Source: Myroides phaeus
GTDB lineage: Bacteria > Bacteroidota > Bacteroidia > Flavobacteriales > Flavobacteriaceae
Direction of reading: 5' to 3'
Assembly (NCBI RefSeq): GCF_009799805.1
Contig: NZ_CP047050.1
Span: 2,060,001 to 2,124,000, forward strand
Length of the DNA stretch: 64,000 bases
In this document: positions 9,425 to 58,251 of the stretch, in pieces
Layout of the letters: the number at the start of each line of letters is the position of its first letter
Position numbering within the stretch: position 1 is the stretch's first letter
Program-made: the position numbers and the translations under genes
The notes under the pieces: model-generated
The model's input: only the letters and a program-made list of their open reading frames with translations
Database searches by the model: none
What the model was told of the DNA's origin: nothing

Positions 9425-9443
9425 AAGCTAAATATAATTAGCG

Positions 9444-10874
9444 ATGAAAGAAGTAAACATCAAGAGTTTAGGGATAACGTTAGTAGTGGGAGTGCTACTA
9501 TGGTTTTGTCCAATTCCAGAAGGAGTAACACCAGATGCGTGGCACTTATTTGCCATATTCGTAAGTACGATTTTAGGAATTATATTAAAGGCTGCCCCAA
9601 TGGGAACAATGTGTATGTTGGCAGTCGGTTTAACAGCATTTTTCCAATTGTTAGCGCCAGGTGATCCTGGTAAATCAATCGCTTTAAGTTTAAGTGGTTT
9701 TGGAGATAAAGTAATTTGGTTAATTGGTATATCTTTCTTTATTGCGAGAGGGTTTATTAAAACAGGATTAGGAAATCGTATTGCTTTTATCTTTATCCGT
9801 ATTTTCGGAAAAAGTACATTAGGATTAGCGTACGGATTAGGGTTAGCTGATTTAGTATTAGCACCTGCTATTCCAAGTAACACTGCTCGTGGGGGAGGTA
9901 TTATCTACCCAATTATGAAATCTATGGCTATCAACTTTGGTTCTGATGCAGCTAAACCAGAAACTCATAGAAAATTAGGTTCTTTCTTGACATTAAACTG
10001 TTATTACATGAATTTGATCGCATCTTCAATGTTCTTAACAGGTACTGCAAGTAACCCGATGTGTCAGAAGTTCGCTGCTGATATGGGGGTAAACATTAGT
10101 TGGATGTCGTGGGCAGCTGCTGGTTTTGTACCAGGATTGGTTGCTTTCATCATAACACCAATTGTTTTGTATAAAATATTTCCACCTGAATTAAAGAAAA
10201 CTGCTGATGCTCCTAAAATGGCTGCTCAGAAGTTAAAAGAAATGGGGAAATTATCAGTGTCAGAAATCTTAATGTTAATCACATTCGTTATTCTTTTAGT
10301 TTTATGGATTACAGGTGATTTATTTAAAATTGATGCTACTACAACTGCTTTTATTGGTTTAGCAATTCTATTGTTAACTTCTGTGTTAACTTGGGAAGAT
10401 GTTAAAGCTGAGAAAGGTGCTTGGGATACAATTGTATGGTTTGCCGTATTAGTAATGATGGCAAGTTCATTAAACAAATTAGGATTCATCGGATGGTTTA
10501 GTGATTTAGTAAAAGGTCAGATGGGAGATATGGATTGGCATTATGCTTTCCCAATTCTTGTCATCGTGTACTTCTTTAGTCACTATATCTTTGCGAGTGC
10601 TACTGCTCACGTTGCGGCAATGTATGCAGCTTTGTTAGGTGTAGGTATTTCGTTAGGTGTTCCTCCAGTATTGTTAGCAATGATGTTAGGTTTCATGGGA
10701 TCTATCTACGGTACATTAACTCACTATGGTCACGGTCCGGCTCCAGTATTCTTTGGTAGTGGATATGTTGAATTGAAAACTTGGTGGTTGTACGGATTTA
10801 TTATTGGTGTGTTATTATTAGCTGTTTACTTAGTAGTTGGTACAAGTTGGATGGGCTTAATTGGAGCATACTAA
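9444..10874 (+). CDS. DASS-family anion (2-oxoglutarate/malate/succinate type) transporter
   Basis: This is an inner-membrane divalent anion:sodium symporter or antiporter of 476 residues with about 12 membrane segments. The two signature substrate/cation loops are visible as PSNTARGGG (Ser145-Asn146-Thr147) and ASATAHVA (Ser385-Ala386-Thr387). It resembles CitT/TtdT and the plastid 2-oxoglutarate/malate translocators. Position as the last gene of the sdh-porin unit suggests import of the complex II substrate or exchange of its product. The exact substrate is inferred from context. Confidence 0.85.
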   Translation: MKEVNIKSLGITLVVGVLLWFCPIPEGVTPDAWHLFAIFVSTILGIILKAAPMGTMCMLAVGLTAFFQLLAPGDPGKSIALSLSGFGDKVIWLIGISFFIARGFIKTGLGNRIAFIFIRIFGKSTLGLAYGLGLADLVLAPAIPSNTARGGGIIYPIMKSMAINFGSDAAKPETHRKLGSFLTLNCYYMNLIASSMFLTGTASNPMCQKFAADMGVNISWMSWAAAGFVPGLVAFIITPIVLYKIFPPELKKTADAPKMAAQKLKEMGKLSVSEILMLITFVILLVLWITGDLFKIDATTTAFIGLAILLLTSVLTWEDVKAEKGAWDTIVWFAVLVMMASSLNKLGFIGWFSDLVKGQMGDMDWHYAFPILVIVYFFSHYIFASATAHVAAMYAALLGVGISLGVPPVLLAMMLGFMGSIYGTLTHYGHGPAPVFFGSGYVELKTWWLYGFIIGVLLLAVYLVVGTSWMGLIGAY

Positions 10875-11019: not shown

Positions 11020-12327
11020 ATGAATCAAAAAGAGAAAGTAGTAGTTTGTTGGTATAGAAGAGATTTGAGATTAAAGGACAATAAAGCTCTGTATTACGCT
11101 GTTCAAAGTGGGTATAAAGTATTGCCTATCTTCATCTTTGACAAGGATATTTTAGAACAGTTTCCTAACAAAGCAGATAGGAGAGTTGACTATATTCACC
11201 AAGTGCTGACAGAACTCAACGCTTTTTTGAAGCAATACAACGCAGGAATAACTTTTTTTCACTCAACTGTAAAGGAGGCTTTTTCTTCCTTGATGGCACA
11301 ATTTGATATTCAGGGTGTTTTTTACAATGAAGACTATGAACCCAAAACAATTGCCCGTGATCGTGAGATTGGTAGTTTGTTAGCTGAGCAACAAATAGCA
11401 TTTAACGGATTTAAAGATCACGTTATTTTTAGAGGGGATGAGATTTTAAAACAAGATGGCTCTCCTTATCAGATCTATACGCCTTATGCTAAGTTGTGGA
11501 GAAGTAAGTTGGGGGAACAAGATTTGTATAATTACACCCCAAAGTTGTCGAGTGAAAACTTATATACAACAGATACAACTATTCCGTCTTTAAATAGTTT
11601 AGGCTATGAAACGACAGGGTATAAGTTTGTCATTCCAACGTTAAACGAAACGTTGATTGATAGTTATCACTTACACCGTGATTATCCAGGGATAGAAGGA
11701 ACGACGCATTTAGGAATAGCCTTGCGCTTTGGAACAATATCAATTCGCAAGTGTGTGATTTTTGCTTTACAACACAACGATGTGTGGTTGTCTGAATTGA
11801 TATGGCGAGATTTCTTTAGTCAGATATTGTTTAACTTTCCTCAGATTGAAAACTTGTGTTTTAAACCCAAATACGAGAATATTCAGTACAGAAATAACGA
11901 GGAGGAGTTTAAGCTATGGTGTGAAGGCCGCACGGGATATCCTATTGTCGATGCAGGGATGCGCGAATTGAATACTACTGGATTTATGCACAATAGAGTG
12001 CGTATGATTGTAGCCAGTTTCTTGACAAAACACTTGTTGATTGATTGGAGATGGGGAGAAGCGTACTTTGCACAGCACTTGTTGGATTACGACTTGTCTG
12101 CTAACAATGGGAATTGGCAATGGGCAGCAGGATGTGGGTGTGATGCCGCTCCTTATTTCAGGATATTTAATCCGAGTGAGCAAACCAAGAAGTTTGACAA
12201 GGAAAATAAGTATATCAACAAATGGTTGCCTGAATTAGCAAATGGCGAGTATTGGGAGGAGATTGTTGACCACAAAGAAGCACGTATTCGTGCCCTTGAA
12301 ACCTATAAACGTGGGTTAGAACAATAA
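11020..12327 (+). CDS. phrB: Deoxyribodipyrimidine photolyase (class I cryptochrome/photolyase family)
   Basis: The product repairs UV-induced pyrimidine dimers using light. The N-terminal Rossmann antenna domain begins CWYRRDLRLKDNKAL. The helical FAD domain carries LIWRDFF, GYPIVDAGMREL, GFMHNRVRMIVASFL and LSANNGNWQWAAGCG. The W-rich C-terminal block and a length of 435 residues fit CPD photolyases. The N-x-D/NWQW region is that of a repair enzyme rather than a sensory cryptochrome, but substrate preference is inferred. Confidence 0.9.
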   Translation: MNQKEKVVVCWYRRDLRLKDNKALYYAVQSGYKVLPIFIFDKDILEQFPNKADRRVDYIHQVLTELNAFLKQYNAGITFFHSTVKEAFSSLMAQFDIQGVFYNEDYEPKTIARDREIGSLLAEQQIAFNGFKDHVIFRGDEILKQDGSPYQIYTPYAKLWRSKLGEQDLYNYTPKLSSENLYTTDTTIPSLNSLGYETTGYKFVIPTLNETLIDSYHLHRDYPGIEGTTHLGIALRFGTISIRKCVIFALQHNDVWLSELIWRDFFSQILFNFPQIENLCFKPKYENIQYRNNEEEFKLWCEGRTGYPIVDAGMRELNTTGFMHNRVRMIVASFLTKHLLIDWRWGEAYFAQHLLDYDLSANNGNWQWAAGCGCDAAPYFRIFNPSEQTKKFDKENKYINKWLPELANGEYWEEIVDHKEARIRALETYKRGLEQ

Positions 12328-12394
12328 TTTTCTTAGAAGTTCGCAAATTGGCTTGAATATTGTAATACTAATCAAAATTCTAAAACGATAAATA

Positions 12395-13450
12395 ATGAAA
12401 AGAATACATAAAACAGTTGCTACAATCTTGATGTGTTGTGGTGCTTTTGTGATGATACCAAAAGCAGAGGCTTGTACCAGAGTAGTGTACAAAGGACCTA
12501 ATAATACGATTCTAACGGCTCGTTCGATGGACTGGAAAGAGGAGATTATGCCTAATATATGGGTGTTTCCAAGAGGTATTGAGCGCCAAGGAGAAGTAGG
12601 TAAAGCGTCTGCAAAGTGGAAAGCAAAATACGGAAGTGTTGTTACTTCTGCTTTTGACTTAGCGACAACAGATGGAATGAATGAGAAAGGATTAGTGTCT
12701 AACATCCTATGGTTGGTAGAGTCACAATACCCTGAGTATAATCCACAAGGTAAAGACAAGGGAATTAGCTTAGCGATGTGGGCACAGTACGCTTTAGATA
12801 ATTACGCAACTGTAGAAGAGGCAGTAATTGATTTACAGAAGAACCCGGTAGTTGTTGTAACAGCTAATACACCAGGAAGAACGTCATTGGCAACAGTGCA
12901 CTTAACTATTTCTGATGCAAAAGGAGACAGTGCAGTATTTGAGTATATCGACGGAAAGTTGAAAGTATATCACGATGCATCGTACACTGTAGTAACGAAC
13001 TCGCCTACATTTGACAAGCAATTAGCAATTAATGATTATATCAGCTATTTACCAGGAAACAAAGTGTTACCAGGAACAGGTAGATCAGAAGATCGTTTTG
13101 CAAGAGCGAAGTATTACGCAACGGCAGTAACACAATCAGATGACATTAAAGTGGCTTTAGGAGCAACGTTTAGTGTGATTAGAAACTGTTCAGTGCCTTA
13201 TGGAGTTCACATTGATGGGGAGCCAAACTTGTCGTCAACAAAATGGAGAACAGTATCTGACCAAAAGAACTTAGTGTATTACTACGAAGATCCATTGTCA
13301 TTAACACCAATGTGGATAGATTTAAAAGCAATTGACTTTAGCGAGAAAGCAAGCGTTAAAAAGTTAGATGTTTCTCAAAGCCAACAATATGCTGGTCTTT
13401 CAAACGATAAGTTAGTAGAGGCTAAAGCATTTAAGTTTTTAGGAATTTAA
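12395..13450 (+). CDS. Secreted linear amide C-N hydrolase (choloylglycine/penicillin V acylase family)
   Basis: This is an Ntn hydrolase that cuts non-peptide amide bonds. A signal peptide ends at KAEA, so the catalytic nucleophile Cys27 (A-CTRVVYKG) becomes the mature N-terminus. Downstream are the ARSMDW segment with its conserved Arg and Asp, NEKGLVSN, and the C-terminal RTVSDQKNLVYYYEDP segment. The 351 residues are full length. Export to the periplasm or outside suggests acylated small molecules as substrates: bile-salt-like, penicillin V-like or acyl-homoserine-lactone-like. Which one cannot be read from the sequence. Confidence 0.85.
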   Translation: MKRIHKTVATILMCCGAFVMIPKAEACTRVVYKGPNNTILTARSMDWKEEIMPNIWVFPRGIERQGEVGKASAKWKAKYGSVVTSAFDLATTDGMNEKGLVSNILWLVESQYPEYNPQGKDKGISLAMWAQYALDNYATVEEAVIDLQKNPVVVVTANTPGRTSLATVHLTISDAKGDSAVFEYIDGKLKVYHDASYTVVTNSPTFDKQLAINDYISYLPGNKVLPGTGRSEDRFARAKYYATAVTQSDDIKVALGATFSVIRNCSVPYGVHIDGEPNLSSTKWRTVSDQKNLVYYYEDPLSLTPMWIDLKAIDFSEKASVKKLDVSQSQQYAGLSNDKLVEAKAFKFLGI

Positions 13451-46249: not shown

Positions 46250-46250
46250 G

Positions 46251-46325
46251 TCGGGGTGGCAGGATTCGAACCTGCGACCTCCTGGTCCCAAACCAGGCGC
46301 GATGACCGGGCTACGCTACACCCCG
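46251..46325 (-). tRNA. tRNA-Pro (anticodon TGG), copy 1
   Basis: On the minus strand, CGGGGTG pairs with CACCCCG, discriminator A. Anticodon loop TTTGGGA gives TGG. T-loop GGTTCGAATCC. The sequence appears identical to the copy at 46368-46442, a tandem duplication. CCA not encoded. Confidence 0.94.
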
Positions 46326-46367
46326 ATTGGGTCATCTTTAGTATATTTTATTGTCTAAGTTATTTCG

Positions 46368-46442
46368 TCGGGGTGGCAGGATTCGAACCTGCGACCTCCT
46401 GGTCCCAAACCAGGCGCGATGACCGGGCTACGCTACACCCCG
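46368..46442 (-). tRNA. tRNA-Pro (anticodon TGG), copy 2
   Basis: Same 75-base sequence as the neighbouring copy, separated by 42 bp. It lies 10 bp downstream of tRNA-Ser in transcript order, so the three are one transcript. Confidence 0.94.
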
Positions 46443-46452
46443 AAAAACTTAG

Positions 46453-46536
46453 CGGAGAGACAGGGACTCGAACCCTGGCATCGGTTACCCGATGACAGAT
46501 TAGCAATCTGCTCCGTTACCACTCCGGCACCTCTCC
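46453..46536 (-). tRNA. tRNA-Ser (anticodon GCT)
   Basis: This is an 84-base class II tRNA read on the minus strand. Acceptor GGAGAGG pairs with TCTCTCC (one G-U), discriminator G. Anticodon loop TTGCTAA gives GCT for AGC/AGT. The long variable arm CATCGGGTAACCGATG supports serine identity. It is first in the tRNA operon. Confidence 0.93.
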
Positions 46537-52185: not shown

Positions 52186-52899
52186 ATGAAGAAAGTACTC
52201 ACTCTGTTATCTGCTATTTTATTACTTGTTGTAAGTGGTAGTTGTAGTAATGATGATGATTATAATGGATATCCAATCGAATATGCTGCTGCATTTACAA
52301 TGGTTAATGCGTATGAAGGGAATAACCAAGTGCGTTATATCGTTGACAATCGAAGTATTCAAACACCATATCAACCTTTGATATACCGTACGTTTGGCTA
52401 TGCAAACTTGTGGAGCGGCAATCGTGCTTTAACAATTATTGATAACGCAAACCCTAAACCACTGGTTAATGAAGTTATTCAAGTTGAAAGCGGAAAAGCT
52501 TATACTTCTTTTATAGCTGGTACTTCATCAGAAACGGTGAGTCACTTTATTACTTCAGATGAGGGAATGCCTCAAGAAGAAGGTGTTGAAAACCCAAATG
52601 CAGGTGTACGCTTTTTTAACTTGAGTTCAGATAATGTAGAAGTTTCCGTGCAGTTTGACGGCAAGGTTGCGGCAGATGTATTTGCAAACAGAATACAAGA
52701 TAGTAAGCTTACTGCAAGTAAAAGTCAGATATTTAATGGGGTTGAACCCAATGCCTATAAGGTTTCTATAGTTGACAAAAGTGGCAATGTATTAGCTACC
52801 AGAGAGAACGTTAAGTTTGAAAAAGGTAAATATTACACCCTAACTTTTGTGGGAGCTAAAGACAACAAAGAAAAATCATATTATATCGGAGTTATTTGA
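52186..52899 (+). CDS. DUF4397-like lipoprotein
   Basis: The 237-residue protein has a lipobox GSCSNDDD (Cys20), the acidic +2 region typical of Bacteroidota surface lipoproteins. The mature protein is beta-rich with two related halves. Each has an AxxxxVNA/VRFFNLS start, and NVEVSVQFDGKVAAD and YKVSIVDKSGNVLATRENVKFEKGKYYTLTFVG match the DUF4397 pattern. It is probably surface-exposed. Monocistronic. Confidence 0.75.
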   Translation: MKKVLTLLSAILLLVVSGSCSNDDDYNGYPIEYAAAFTMVNAYEGNNQVRYIVDNRSIQTPYQPLIYRTFGYANLWSGNRALTIIDNANPKPLVNEVIQVESGKAYTSFIAGTSSETVSHFITSDEGMPQEEGVENPNAGVRFFNLSSDNVEVSVQFDGKVAADVFANRIQDSKLTASKSQIFNGVEPNAYKVSIVDKSGNVLATRENVKFEKGKYYTLTFVGAKDNKEKSYYIGVI

Positions 52900-53161: not shown

Positions 53162-54166
53162 ATGAACGATACCTTTTCTAATAATCAAATAAATGTCAAC
53201 GGATTACCTAATCTTGACGCAATCAAGTTTACTCCCCTAAATTCAAGATATGGCAACGTAATTCTTATCCGTTTGACGATAATAGTACTTGTTTTAACTG
53301 CTATAGGATGTACACCCATATTTGCTCACGATTTTATTCCAGAACTACAAGTGCCAATGGGACTACAAGTTGCAGCAATTGCTTTTACGAGTATATTGTC
53401 GTTGCTAATTGTAGTCGTTAACTTATTGGGGTTTAAGAAGAAAGGATACGCAATTAGAGAAAGAGATATTATTTATAAAAGTGGACTAATCAATCGTACT
53501 GAAACGGTTATTCCATTTAATAGAGTGCAACACGTAGGTATATATGAAGGTGCGTTATTGCGCGTGTTTGACCTGTGTACAGTGGAGTTTTTTACAGCTG
53601 GTGGTGCTATGGGCGACCTAAAGATTCCGGGGTTGTCTAAAGAAGAAGGGGACCGATTAAAAGCGTATGTTATCCAGAATATCAACCAAGAGAATAAGAC
53701 TGAGAAATCAAGAGAACACGGGACTTCAGAACATACTTGTTGCAAAGAGGGAGCACACGATGCTTGTGAACACAACACAGCAGAGCACACTTGTTGTAAA
53801 GAGGGAGCACACGATGCTTGTGATCACAACACAACAGCGCATACTTGTTGTAAAGAGGGAGCACACGATGCTTGTGAACACAACACAGTAGAGCATACTT
53901 GTTGTAAAGAGGGAGCACACGATGTTTGTGAGCACAACACAACAGAGTGTACTTGTTGCAAAGAGGGAGCACACGATGCTTGTGATCACAACGCAGTAGA
54001 GCATACTTGTTGTAAAGAGGGAGCACACGATGCTTGTGATCACAACACAACAGCCCATACTTGTTGTAAAGAGGGAGCACACGATGCTTGTGAGCACAAC
54101 GCAGCAGAGCATACTTGTTGTACTGAAGAACCATTGTCTCACAAGAATACCTCACACAATGCATAA
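53162..54166 (+). CDS. YdbS-like PH-domain membrane protein with Cys/His-rich repeat tail
   Basis: The 334-residue protein has three parts. Residues ~32-90 hold two membrane helices. Residues ~95-170 form a bacterial PH (bPH2) domain (YAIRERDIIYKSGLINRTETVIPFNRVQHVGIYEG, FFTAGGAMGDLKIPGLSKEE). From residue 190 to ~325 there are seven tandem 18-residue units plus a partial eighth, each close to HTCCKEGAHDACEHN. Ordinary YdbS proteins end near residue 160-180, so the tail is an added module. About three Cys and three His per unit suggest metal binding. The ydbT-like gene overlaps its stop by 8 nt. Confidence 0.85.
   Translation: MNDTFSNNQINVNGLPNLDAIKFTPLNSRYGNVILIRLTIIVLVLTAIGCTPIFAHDFIPELQVPMGLQVAAIAFTSILSLLIVVVNLLGFKKKGYAIRERDIIYKSGLINRTETVIPFNRVQHVGIYEGALLRVFDLCTVEFFTAGGAMGDLKIPGLSKEEGDRLKAYVIQNINQENKTEKSREHGTSEHTCCKEGAHDACEHNTAEHTCCKEGAHDACDHNTTAHTCCKEGAHDACEHNTVEHTCCKEGAHDVCEHNTTECTCCKEGAHDACDHNAVEHTCCKEGAHDACDHNTTAHTCCKEGAHDACEHNAAEHTCCTEEPLSHKNTSHNA
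53729..54133 (+). repeat. 54-bp in-frame tandem repeat array (7 full units plus a partial)
   Basis: Units of exactly 54 bp start with GAACATACTTGTTG or close variants and differ from one another by only a few bases. The near-identity at DNA level shows recent expansion and predicts length variation between strains. Since 54 is divisible by 3, reading frame is kept in every unit. Confidence 0.93.
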
Positions 54167-55655
54167 CAACTTTTACCAACCAACAAGACAAGCGGCAATT
54201 GGTATAGTTGCCAATTTCCTAAACACGTTACAACGTTTAGGTAGGGCATTTGCACCCTTAATTGTGATTTACTTCATTAAAGGCAGTATTTCATTTAGTT
54301 TCTCAATAGGTGGGGCAGTAGCGTTAATCGTTGTACTAATGCTTGTATTTTCTTATTTCAGTTACCGCAAGTTCACGTTTTACATCGATGAAAAGATAGA
54401 CGCATTTGTCATTGAAAAAGGAGTGTTCAACAAGTCTAAAATCACCATCCAATTAGATAAAATTCAGCAAGTAAACCTCAATCAGAGTTTCATCAATCGC
54501 ATTGTAAATGTTTACGCCGTTGAGATTGACTCAGCAGGTAGTAAAGACAAAGAAGCTGTAATTCCGTCAATGGCGTGGGCTGATGCAAATAACTTAAAAA
54601 AGATATTGTTAGAATATCAAAAGGAACAACAGGCAACGAATATTGATGAAGGTGCAACTGTTTCTACAGCTCAAAACACAAAAGAAATAGGCGTTGGAAC
54701 CCTTTTAAAAGTGGGGTTAACAACTAACTATCTATATACGGCGGGACTTATCTTCGTATTTGTCAATATGTTTTTAGACTCTTTTGTTGGCAAGAAAGTA
54801 TATGAAGAATACTTAGATGAAGAAAGTGTGAATGAGTATGTAAGCAATGGTTTTTCCGCTGTTTACGGACTGTATATTGTTGCGTTTATCATTCTGTTGG
54901 TATTGGTTGTTAATGTGTTTAGAACCTTGATGAAGTTTTGGGATTTCAAGATTACAACAACTAATAATACGTTGGTTTTATCACACGGATTGGTGTCAAC
55001 AAGAAATACGATTATTCGTCCTAATCGCGTTCAAAAGGTTGTTTTAGTACAGAATTACTTCCAAAAACTGTGGGATATCACCAGTTTAAAGATTATTCAG
55101 GTTGCCGGAGTAGAAGGAGAAAACAACAAAACAGGATTAGAAATACCAGGTTGTTCTGCTGTAGAGAAAGCAGCGTTTTTTGATATTATTTACAACAAAC
55201 AGGCAGAGAAAAGTACATTCTCATTGAAATACAACTACCGTTTCTTAGGCTTTAGAGCGTTTATGTTTATAGGTTTACCCTTGGCTATTTTCGCGTTTAT
55301 GTATTACGGACAATTACCTTTCCAAAAGTTTATTAGCCTTGCATTAGGGTACAGTATCGTTGTTTTTGCTATACTATTTCGAATGTACAAGGTAGGGCGA
55401 CTATTTGTTAATGACAGTTTTATTGTTTTGCGAACAGGCGTTTGGGACATCAAACACACGTACTTAGAACCCCATAAAATACAGAAAATAACCCTATCTC
55501 AATTGTGGTGGCAACAATCAGCTAATGTTGGTAGTTTAACCTTACACACAGCTGGAGGACCCTTGCGGTTCAGTACTTCAAAGTACAATGAATTGAAAAA
55601 ACTACGCGATCTAATGCTATATAAAGTAGAAACAGCAGAGAAGAGTTGGATGTGA
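54159..55655 (+). CDS. YdbT-like multi-PH-domain membrane protein
   Basis: The protein has 498 residues from the ATG at 54159 (MHNNFYQPTRQAAIGIV). Longer readings from 54030 run through the repeat array of the previous gene out of its frame and are artefacts. It has pairs of membrane helices alternating with three bPH2 domains (FYIDEKIDAFVIEKGVFNKSKITIQL, NNTLVLSHGLVSTRNTIIRPNRVQ, NDSFIVLRTGVWDIKHTYLEPHKIQ). This is the YdbT layout; in Bacillus the YdbS/YdbT pair gives resistance to a cyclic bacteriocin. Confidence 0.85.
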   Translation: MHNNFYQPTRQAAIGIVANFLNTLQRLGRAFAPLIVIYFIKGSISFSFSIGGAVALIVVLMLVFSYFSYRKFTFYIDEKIDAFVIEKGVFNKSKITIQLDKIQQVNLNQSFINRIVNVYAVEIDSAGSKDKEAVIPSMAWADANNLKKILLEYQKEQQATNIDEGATVSTAQNTKEIGVGTLLKVGLTTNYLYTAGLIFVFVNMFLDSFVGKKVYEEYLDEESVNEYVSNGFSAVYGLYIVAFIILLVLVVNVFRTLMKFWDFKITTTNNTLVLSHGLVSTRNTIIRPNRVQKVVLVQNYFQKLWDITSLKIIQVAGVEGENNKTGLEIPGCSAVEKAAFFDIIYNKQAEKSTFSLKYNYRFLGFRAFMFIGLPLAIFAFMYYGQLPFQKFISLALGYSIVVFAILFRMYKVGRLFVNDSFIVLRTGVWDIKHTYLEPHKIQKITLSQLWWQQSANVGSLTLHTAGGPLRFSTSKYNELKKLRDLMLYKVETAEKSWM

Positions 55656-55722
55656 TATAATAGAGGCGATTTTTAGGGTAATGTGTTGTTTTTGGATTTC
55701 TAATTGATGCGTTGATAGTGTA

Positions 55723-56280
55723 TTATAAATCAGATAGAGTAGATAAGTTGAAAAACATCTGTCTTGTGTCATTATTAACGTCTCTATCTGTTAAAAACTC
55801 AAAGCCTAAGGAAGTGTAAAAGTTTAAGGATTGCGTATAGGCATCAACTGTAATTAATTTGCAAGCTTGTTTGTTGTTTAGTTCTAATGCTTCATTAATT
55901 ATGTTATGAACTAACATTTTACCAATTCCTTTCCCTTTAAACGTATTGTCAATTCCTAATCGACCAATTTTTAAAGCAGGAAAAGACTTTAAGTGTCTTT
56001 TAGGGTGCGTTACTAAATCTTTTAAGAAACGTTTAAATGCACTTTTTGAAGCAAAGCCTTGCTCTTCGAAGTTCAGGCTATCATTAAAAATACTATAGTA
56101 AGCAATTGTCCTTGTAGGGCTTTCTATAATAAAAGTAGTTGCAAGATATTCCTGTTTATATTTTTTTGCTTTTTGAAAAAGAAATTCATTCAAATCATCG
56201 TCTCCACAATCAAAAGGTTTTAATATATGATTGATGTCTAATAGTTTAAAGGATAATTGGTTGAATTCTATAGGAGTCAC
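55723..56280 (-). CDS. GNAT toxin-like acetyltransferase (TacT/AtaT type)
   Basis: The 185-residue GNAT begins KLLDINHILKPFDCGDDDLNEFLFQKAKKY, the FDCGxxxLNxFL signature of tRNA-acetylating toxins. It has the acetyl-CoA loop LGIDNTFKGKGIGKMLV and the catalytic-Tyr region LNFYTSLGFEFL. A small gene ends 5 bp upstream on the same strand, as expected for a toxin-antitoxin pair. Toxicity is inferred from family and context. Confidence 0.8.
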   Translation of the reverse strand: MTPIEFNQLSFKLLDINHILKPFDCGDDDLNEFLFQKAKKYKQEYLATTFIIESPTRTIAYYSIFNDSLNFEEQGFASKSAFKRFLKDLVTHPKRHLKSFPALKIGRLGIDNTFKGKGIGKMLVHNIINEALELNNKQACKLITVDAYTQSLNFYTSLGFEFLTDRDVNNDTRQMFFNLSTLSDL

Positions 56281-56285
56281 AATAT

Positions 56286-56444
56286 TTATTTTTTAAATAT
56301 TGATTTTAACGCATTTGAATCTTCACGAATAGCTTTAAGCTTCGATTTTGATGAAGTTGAGTGCTTTATATCATTTACTTTATTTAAAAAAACAATAGCA
56401 TCTTTACCTCTAAGTACGGGTGTAATTTTAATAGGTTTAGCCAT
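56286..56444 (-). CDS. Candidate short antitoxin of the GNAT module
   Basis: The protein has 52 residues from the ATG at 56444 (MAKPIKITPVLRGKDAIVFL). It is Lys-rich with a C-terminal helical, Ser/Lys-rich part. It precedes the GNAT toxin by 5 bp. TacT-type toxins usually pair with ~90-residue DUF1778 ribbon-helix-helix antitoxins, and this one is shorter and does not obviously match. A longer start at 56486 is less likely because it would include the promoter box. Confidence 0.6.
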   Translation of the reverse strand: MAKPIKITPVLRGKDAIVFLNKVNDIKHSTSSKSKLKAIREDSNALKSIFKK

Positions 56445-56463
56445 CTTTAGAATTTTTATAATA

Positions 56464-56471
56464 CAAAAATA
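56464..56471 (-). promoter_or_regulatory. -7 element TATTTTTG of the toxin-antitoxin pair
   Basis: A perfect TAnnTTTG on the minus strand 20 bp before the antitoxin ATG. No TTG at the expected distance. Confidence 0.45.
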
Positions 56472-56794
56472 AATATATTTTTTCATATATCAGTAAAATA
56501 AATGCATTGCTATTCATTGAATTAGAGCTTTTTATACAATGGTATGCCTGTATTTGACGCATAGTTTATAGGGATTACAGATCAACAACAAAAGTTTTAA
56601 TATGTATTAATGTAATACGCTACTTTATTTACAAATAAATAGCAATGGACTACCACATAGGTTTTGTCCGTGCCCGTGTGATGTATTGATCTATTGAAAA
56701 GATAATGTCAATCGATAACCGAGGTAGGGGCCTTTAGATTTGCTTAATAAAAAAATGATAAATTTATATATACGAGAGAAGTAGAATAAATAAA

Positions 56795-56935
56795 CAACCA
56801 AACCAACAAAGTGTACCATCGTAGGGGCAAAGCATCAAGGCTTATAATTCGATTAGGACTTTGTTGGTTATACTAAGAAGTATCAAATTAGTAATTAAGA
56901 CGTTCGGGTCTAGTATCAAGGTTTAGATAATACTT
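56795..56935 (+). ncRNA. Predicted IS110 bridge RNA
   Basis: The region directly upstream of the transposase folds well. AACCAACAAAGT (56801-56812) pairs perfectly with ACTTTGTTGGTT (56858-56869), enclosing a 45-nt loop. A second domain is closed by AAGTAT / ATACTT (56879-56934) with an AGAC / GTCT inner hairpin. Both loops contain nearly the same word, ATCAAGGCTTA (56834) and ATCAAGGTTTA (56915). This fits the paired target- and donor-binding loops of a bridge RNA. Ends are not determined. Confidence 0.5.
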
Positions 56936-56966
56936 TAGTAAGTGGTTGTTATAAATAATTTTTATT

Positions 56967-57962
56967 ATGAACAAATTTAAGCATTTTATTGGAATAGATA
57001 TTTCAAAAGAGTATTTCGATGCAACGATTTTAGGTGAATCAAAACAATCTTCACACAATCAATTTAGTAATACAAAAAAGGGAATTACTCAGTTTTTGAA
57101 ATGGGTAAGGCAAGAAAAATGTTCTATGGATGTTACTCTAATTTGTATGGAATATACTGGTATTTATAATAAGATAATACTAGATATTTTGATAAATAAA
57201 TCGTTTTATGTCTGGGTTGAGATGTCATATCGTATTATTCGTAGTAGTGGAATTCAACGAGGAAAAAATGATAAAATTGATTCTGAGAGAATAGCTCTTT
57301 ATGCCAAGAAAAATCAAGAAGATGCAAAAATATTTAAAGCATCGGATAAGGTTTTAGATAAAATACAAGGGTTATTAGGGCAACGAGAAATGATTTTATC
57401 TCATAAAACGGCTTTACAAGTTAGAACAAATGAATTGAAAGTGTATGATATAGAAGTTTATAATGTATTATCAAAGAATATTAAAGCAATCATAAGATCA
57501 GAAGAGGTAGCTTTAAAAGCTATTGAAAATCAGATAGATGATTTAATTAAAGAGAATCAAGAACTTCAGGTATTATATAATCATATCACTTCTGTTCCTG
57601 GAGTTGGAAGAGTAACGGCTTTGTTTTTAATCTGTTTTACAAATGCTTGTACAACCTATGAAAACCCAAGACAATTAGCCTCTTATTGTGGTGTAGTTCC
57701 TTTTGAATATACATCAGGTAAAAGTGTTCGTGGTAGAGCAAAGGTTCATTTTATGGCAAATAAAAAGCTTAAAAAACTATTGCATTTATGTGCTCTATCT
57801 AGTTCTAAAAATGATATTGAGATGAAACAATATTATGATAAGAAAGTAGCTGAAGGTAAAAGTAAAATGCTTGTATTGAACAATGTTAGAAATAAACTTA
57901 TACATCGTATTTGTGCTTGTGTAAAAAATAATAGACCTTATGAAATTAGATTAATAGCATAA
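56967..57962 (+). CDS. IS110-family transposase (DEDD recombinase)
   Basis: The 331-residue protein has an N-terminal RuvC-like domain with the DEDD tetrad Asp11 (FIGIDIS), Glu62 (CMEYTGIY), Asp102 and Asp105 (RGKNDKIDSERIALYA). A coiled linker follows, then the Transposase_20 domain (SVPGVGRVTALFLICF, ASYCGVVPFEYTSGKSVRGRAK) with its serine. All catalytic residues are intact and the ORF is unbroken, so the element may be active. It is co-directional with the his operon 340 bp downstream. Confidence 0.92.
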   Translation: MNKFKHFIGIDISKEYFDATILGESKQSSHNQFSNTKKGITQFLKWVRQEKCSMDVTLICMEYTGIYNKIILDILINKSFYVWVEMSYRIIRSSGIQRGKNDKIDSERIALYAKKNQEDAKIFKASDKVLDKIQGLLGQREMILSHKTALQVRTNELKVYDIEVYNVLSKNIKAIIRSEEVALKAIENQIDDLIKENQELQVLYNHITSVPGVGRVTALFLICFTNACTTYENPRQLASYCGVVPFEYTSGKSVRGRAKVHFMANKKLKKLLHLCALSSSKNDIEMKQYYDKKVAEGKSKMLVLNNVRNKLIHRICACVKNNRPYEIRLIA

Positions 57963-58251
57963 TTTAATTTTACATATAATATAAAAACAAGGATAACCAC
58001 AAGTTACCCTTAGGGATTTGTATGCTTTGTTTTATTAAAATATTCTCAAAAAACAACAATAATTATTTCTAATTTTTAATTGGTTTTGTCATAGTAATCG
58101 AATTATTATTCGCCCGCACGGCATACGACACAATGTAAATCACATATCACATCTAACCTCTAACCCTTGTATAATGGTCTGTATATCCTTGCTTTTCATT
58201 ACGTTGCATTGAATAAAAAACACCTTTTTTTCAAAAAAAACATAAAAAAAG

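Follow-up and report, generated by a model that had tools for sequence, protein, structure and literature searches.

A YdbS-like membrane protein encoded in the window, the 64,000-nucleotide stretch of Myroides phaeus DNA analysed here, ends in a repeat tail of seven full 18-residue units and a terminal partial one, rich in cysteine and histidine and spaced exactly 54 bases apart (Table 1). We estimate the probability at roughly one half that this array, with its predicted cytoplasmic location, binds several metal ions and thereby buffers or senses metal at a presumed YdbS-YdbT complex, a reading that draws on analogy with a measured metal-binding tail in plants.

Table 1. The ydbS-ydbT locus and the parts of the repeat tail, with positions in the window.
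Feature	Position	Strand	Basis
YdbS-like membrane protein of 334 amino acids, repeat tail at its C-terminus	53162..54166	+	ORF; bPH_2
First hydrophobic segment, predicted membrane helix, about residues 34-52	53261..53317	+	Kyte-Doolittle 19-residue mean up to 2.51
Second hydrophobic segment, predicted membrane helix, about residues 70-90, then FKKKGYAIRER	53369..53431	+	Kyte-Doolittle mean up to 2.52
bPH_2 domain, residues 94-169	53441..53668	+	Pfam PF03703, E 3.5e-17
Seven full 54-bp units, (E/A)(H/C)TCCKEGAHD(A/V)C(E/D)HNxx	53729..54106	+	Tandem Repeats Finder, unit reading
Terminal partial unit and end, EHTCCTEEPLSHKNTSHNA	54107..54163	+	Counterpart end in M. phaeus DSM 23313, EHSCCTEKPLSHTNISNNA
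8-base overlap of ydbS stop and ydbT start (ATGCATAA)	54159..54166	+	Sequence; offset of -8 also in M. phaeus DSM 23313
YdbT-like partner, 498 amino acids, three bPH_2 stretches	54159..55655	+	PF03703, E 1.1e-34

The array was delimited by Tandem Repeats Finder at positions 53727-54122 (period 54, 7.3 copies, 89% matches, 0 indels), and the sequence shifted by 54 bases matched itself at 0.894, as compared to at most 0.338 in 2000 shuffles. This bears out the seven near-identical units and the partial one described in an earlier note on this DNA. The units in the window are not identical, with 1-8 base differences per pair (mean 4.9). The count of about three cysteines and three histidines per unit given in that note holds for six of the seven full units, but not for unit 5, in which the first histidine is replaced by a cysteine, giving four cysteines and two histidines. 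From residue 183 to the end (152 residues), the protein contains 24 cysteines and 24 histidines. Counted per 145 residues, cysteine and histidine together reach 47 in the tail and 13 at most in any stretch of the 56 other open reading frames in the window, in which cysteine accounts for 1.0% and histidine for 1.9% of the residues. These 56 frames are what is left of the 62 frames of at least 130 amino acids when the ydbS-like frame itself, the two frames that run antisense across the array and three frames on the minus strand (84-1079, 9428-9883 and 12316-12759) are set aside. The position of the array within a single contig of 3,107,673 bases argues against an assembly break. A search for a second copy elsewhere in the genome found none, the sole other match (E 1.66) being antisense within the same array. 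Two antisense frames of 169 and 138 amino acids are open across the array (53682-54191) and are likely a by-product of the 54-base unit.

The protein has the features of YdbS in the YdbS/YdbT pair (COG3402/COG3428; bPH_2, formerly DUF304), namely two hydrophobic segments, predicted to be membrane helices, ahead of a single bPH_2 domain (62.9 bits against PF03703, with a cut-off of 22), and its gene adjoins and overlaps that of a YdbT with three bPH_2 domains. The earlier assignment to this pair, with two helices and one PH domain, is therefore upheld. Gene order and domains correspond to those described for YdbS-YdbT in PMC8657885, where B. subtilis YdbS is given as a protein of 159 amino acids with two transmembrane segments and one PHb2 domain. 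Unlike the tail-less YdbS-like relatives read, which end soon after the PH domain, the window protein continues for 159 residues past residue 175; the short end is a usual trait of YdbS, not an excluding one. Residues 91-110 contain six lysines and arginines, as compared to none in the loop of residues 53-69, which has two acids, and because of this positive-inside pattern a cytoplasmic position is predicted for both the PH domain and the repeat tail, the side to which the earlier note had also assigned the tail. Structure modelling of the protein gave a pLDDT of 36.7 and no usable structure. Directly upstream of the ydbS-ydbT pair is a gene for a DUF4397 protein with a lipoprotein-like start (52186-52899).

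YdbS/YdbT pairs are widespread, and a natural YdbS with a ligand-rich tail offers a way to approach the signal that such pairs respond to. In PMC8144471, protection against amylocyclicin is listed for B. subtilis YdbST, and PMC8657885 reports that DdE/DdF take part in transporting the bacteriocin EntDD14. The latter source also states that the label of YdbT from B. subtilis as a resistance protein had no experiment behind it.

We compared the protein to its relatives in several genome samples. In the genus sample, 202 of 398 genomes matched the protein, and among the matches listed the open frame extends beyond residue 215 only in the window and genome G216, while the matches in G262 and G110 reach that far through stop codons. 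In the phylum sample, with matches in 121 of 395 genomes, only the window passes residue 215 among the matches listed. A tail of the same fixed length in distant relatives, which would have refuted the reading of the earlier note, was not found among the matches listed in these two samples. Searches with the tail alone recovered only the window and G216 from two apparently nested genus samples of 330 and 282 genomes, and only G216 at E < 0.01 from 60 genomes around it, a set to which the window genome does not belong. A scan of 84,980 species genomes, a collection from which the window genome's own record may be absent, yielded 48 matches to the pattern, with a single place confirmed, in Myroides phaeus DSM 23313, which we take to be the same genome as G216. 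Four weak tail matches (G203, G206, G147 and G035; E 0.014-0.41) were rejected, as no such repeat was present among the cysteine-rich ORFs of their loci. The tail had no match on plasmids in a DNA search and none on viral contigs. A protein search of plasmids gave three matches, two of which begin at the PH domain; the third, from Vibrio (28%, E 3e-6), was discarded as an unrelated CCPTGPTDS-type repeat antisense to an annotated gene. This Vibrio repeat occupies positions 3001-3360 of L099, a plasmid of Vibrio sp. MAO6, and is open opposite the annotated gene. No account of such a YdbS tail was found in the open-licence literature among the matches listed.

The ends of the relatives were read from 97 loci, of which 92 gave a match at E <= 1e-6 over at least 120 residues. 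Seventy-eight of these were distinct, and 77 of them, the window included, were counted as YdbS-like, with L092 left out as a YdbT. L092 had been considered as a YdbS-YdbT fusion, which was rejected on finding a separate 501-residue YdbT in a genome with a 191-residue YdbS. Also outside the count are L063 and L095-L097 (weak tail matches), L091 (YdbS match of fewer than 120 residues) and L060. Cysteine is absent after the PH domain in 75 of the 77 distinct proteins, all 75 of which stop 1 to 42 residues past the point equivalent to residue 175, and a cysteine tail is present only in the window and in M. phaeus DSM 23313. Judged by these relatives, the tail is not a trait of the YdbS family, in agreement with the earlier statement that the family normally lacks it. 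In a tree of 22 body segments, the window groups with M. phaeus DSM 23313 (100/98), and three relatives without the cysteine tail adjoin this pair (98/96), a placement consistent with one gain of the tail within a small lineage.

The array in M. phaeus DSM 23313 consists of three full units, one unit from which 15 bases are missing and a terminal end that matches, a unit count that may be collapsed since the assembly is a draft of about 60 contigs and two of the units are identical. The protein is 275 amino acids long, as compared to 334 in the window, a gap of three units plus five residues, and its tail of 93 residues contains 17 cysteines and 8 histidines. The comparison of repeat number across genomes suggested in the earlier note thus yields a difference in the sole relative with the tail, and the array is length-variable, as had been supposed. 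Since the change is in frame, it alters the length of the tail and does not act as an off-switch of the protein. The two bodies are identical at 173 of 182 residues, with nucleotide identities of 93.4% for the body and 95.9% for ydbT, and both are strongly constrained (for the body Ka 0.022 and Ks 0.256, for ydbT Ka 0.011 and Ks 0.172). The units, in contrast, are near neutral between the genomes (pN 0.174, pS 0.191), which makes the tail the fast-changing part of the protein. The three full units of M. phaeus DSM 23313 differ from one another at 0-5 bases, while the difference between the genomes averages 9.6 bases, and units closer to their neighbours than to their counterparts indicate an array that changes length and is homogenised in each lineage. 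As both genomes carry the tail, its origin probably predates their split, and the present units were likely homogenised after it. The array had been called recent, which fits the present units but probably not the tail as such. The two genomes show clearly how a cysteine-rich repeat was acquired, extended and homogenised within one lineage.

The main competitor to metal binding, and one to be taken seriously, is neutral expansion of the repeat. By this account replication slippage copied a short sequence at the C-terminus, and the copies are tolerated because they follow the folded domain, without having any use under selection, which we consider possible, if somewhat doubtful. The finding of the tail in only two closely related genomes, the near-equal pN and pS of the units and the 15-base deletion that took part of one M. 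phaeus DSM 23313 unit are what such drift would leave behind, and homogenisation alone can make units appear conserved. Prokaryotic low-complexity regions are strongly depleted of cysteine, a residue judged to be poorly tolerated there (PMC6821194); for this reason, 24 kept cysteines would be unexpected without a use. The preservation of the frame through the length change likewise speaks against neutrality, as do the Cys-Cys dyads, which are intact in all 13 copies (eight in the window, five in M. phaeus DSM 23313) despite silent TGC/TGT variation at the second cysteine. Unit position 10 is histidine in all 11 non-terminal units, position 13 is cysteine in 10 of the 11, and position 2 is histidine or cysteine, either of which could serve as a metal ligand, in 13 of 13 copies. 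At position 2, histidine is found in six of the seven full window units and cysteine in the remaining one as well as in all three full units of M. phaeus DSM 23313, an exchange that takes two base changes (CAT/CAC to TGT). Position 15 is less stable, with histidine in all seven window units and asparagine in two of the three full M. phaeus DSM 23313 units. Within the window, pair counts, for which the pairs are not independent, gave pN 0.036 and pS 0.381 for the ligand codons, and pN 0.107 and pS 0.073 for the other codons; between the genomes, pN was 0.149 and 0.189, respectively. Tested by column, replacements vary in 2 of 6 ligand columns and in 8 of 12 other columns, a difference that is not significant (Fisher p 0.32) even with the His-Cys exchange counted as kept (p 0.13), which again is compatible with neutral expansion. 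The kept pattern of cysteine and histidine is in keeping with a role as metal ligands, but it is no proof of selection.

The nearest measured analogue known to us is the C-terminal extension of plant HMA4, in which the dyads are not known to form an exact tandem repeat. In both cases a membrane protein ends in a tail rich in Cys-Cys dyads and histidine, and the window protein has eight dyads in a C-terminal tail predicted to be on the cytoplasmic side. HMA4, a P-type ATPase, shares no homology with YdbS, and zinc binding, which has been measured for HMA4, is carried over to the window tail by analogy; with this likeness, binding of metal by the tail appears likely. The HMA4 extension was reported to bind about 7 zinc ions with a KD below 1 nM and about another 4 in the range of 1-10 nM, of which about 2 and about 2 were left when the cysteine pairs were changed to alanine (PMC6255694). 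According to PMC10654040, HMA4 contains 13 dyads, as compared to 8 in the window tail, and its histidine stretch contributes little to high-affinity binding. By the same analogy, the eight dyads and nearby histidines of the window tail would bind several ions of zinc or a similar thiol-seeking metal, and beside YdbT, on the cytoplasmic surface of the membrane, the tail would buffer or sense metal. Gain or loss of whole units would change the number of sites, and thus the capacity, with the frame untouched, and the arrays of the window and M. phaeus DSM 23313 make it possible to ask if the capacity for metal is tuned by the number of units. The weakest step is that metal loading would alter the action of YdbS-YdbT at the membrane. 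The full scenario, in which a PH-domain protein of the bacteriocin-resistance type became a metal sensor and slippage tunes its capacity by one 54-bp unit at a time in an unbroken frame, seems unlikely to us as a whole.

Prokaryotic metallothioneins (PF02069, SmtA type) are dense in cysteine and histidine, as is the window tail, but the window protein is predicted to be membrane-anchored and is built of repeats, rather than being a small folded protein. PF02069 had no match in the protein (E up to 1) or in the genome (E up to 0.001); in a control search it matched 1 of 14 known genomes, Synechococcus elongatus. Two observations speak against a metal role. No metal-transport or metal-resistance families were identified by a Pfam scan among ten neighbouring proteins, two of which matched nothing, and in B. 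subtilis, ydbST was reported to go down, not up, under Hg(II), along with much of the sigma-W regulon (PMC12563154). The literature searched gave no link of the YdbS/YdbT family to metals.

The dyads might instead cycle disulfides or take up electrophiles, so that the tail reports oxidative or thiol stress at the membrane. Their retention in 13 of 13 copies would fit this, and the predicted cytoplasmic location would hold them reduced at rest, but disulfides between adjacent cysteines are strained and rare, and the many histidines and the His-Cys exchange at position 2 agree better with metal, which makes a redox role improbable. Still further from our expectation is a role in translation, whereby the run of cysteine and histidine codons would slow ribosomes in shortage of these amino acids and lower YdbT through the 8-base overlap. 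The codon run does end directly at the overlapping ydbT start, and the overlap is identical in M. phaeus DSM 23313; however, ydbS overlaps ydbT in eight of the nine tail-less relatives examined (by 8 bases in L033 and by 1 to 29 bases in seven, with none in L048, each gene being taken to begin at the earliest start codon of its open frame), so that coupling of the two genes needs no tail, and the RNA structure in the array is not beyond chance (z-score 0.06). Both of these readings are thus the less likely ones. All seven full window units bear GAGGGAG and an ATG that is in frame with ydbT, but alternative ydbT starts within the array were rejected because two stops break the frame and the full units of M. 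phaeus DSM 23313 have ATA.

Downstream of ydbT, the window contains about 2.5 kb (about 55660-58177) where M. phaeus DSM 23313 has about 160 bases, and this stretch holds a GNAT gene (55723-56280, minus strand) and a transposase of the IS110 family (56967-57962). Elsewhere in the window, two tandem tRNA-Pro(TGG) genes are located beside a tRNA-Ser gene at 46250-46536, all on the minus strand.
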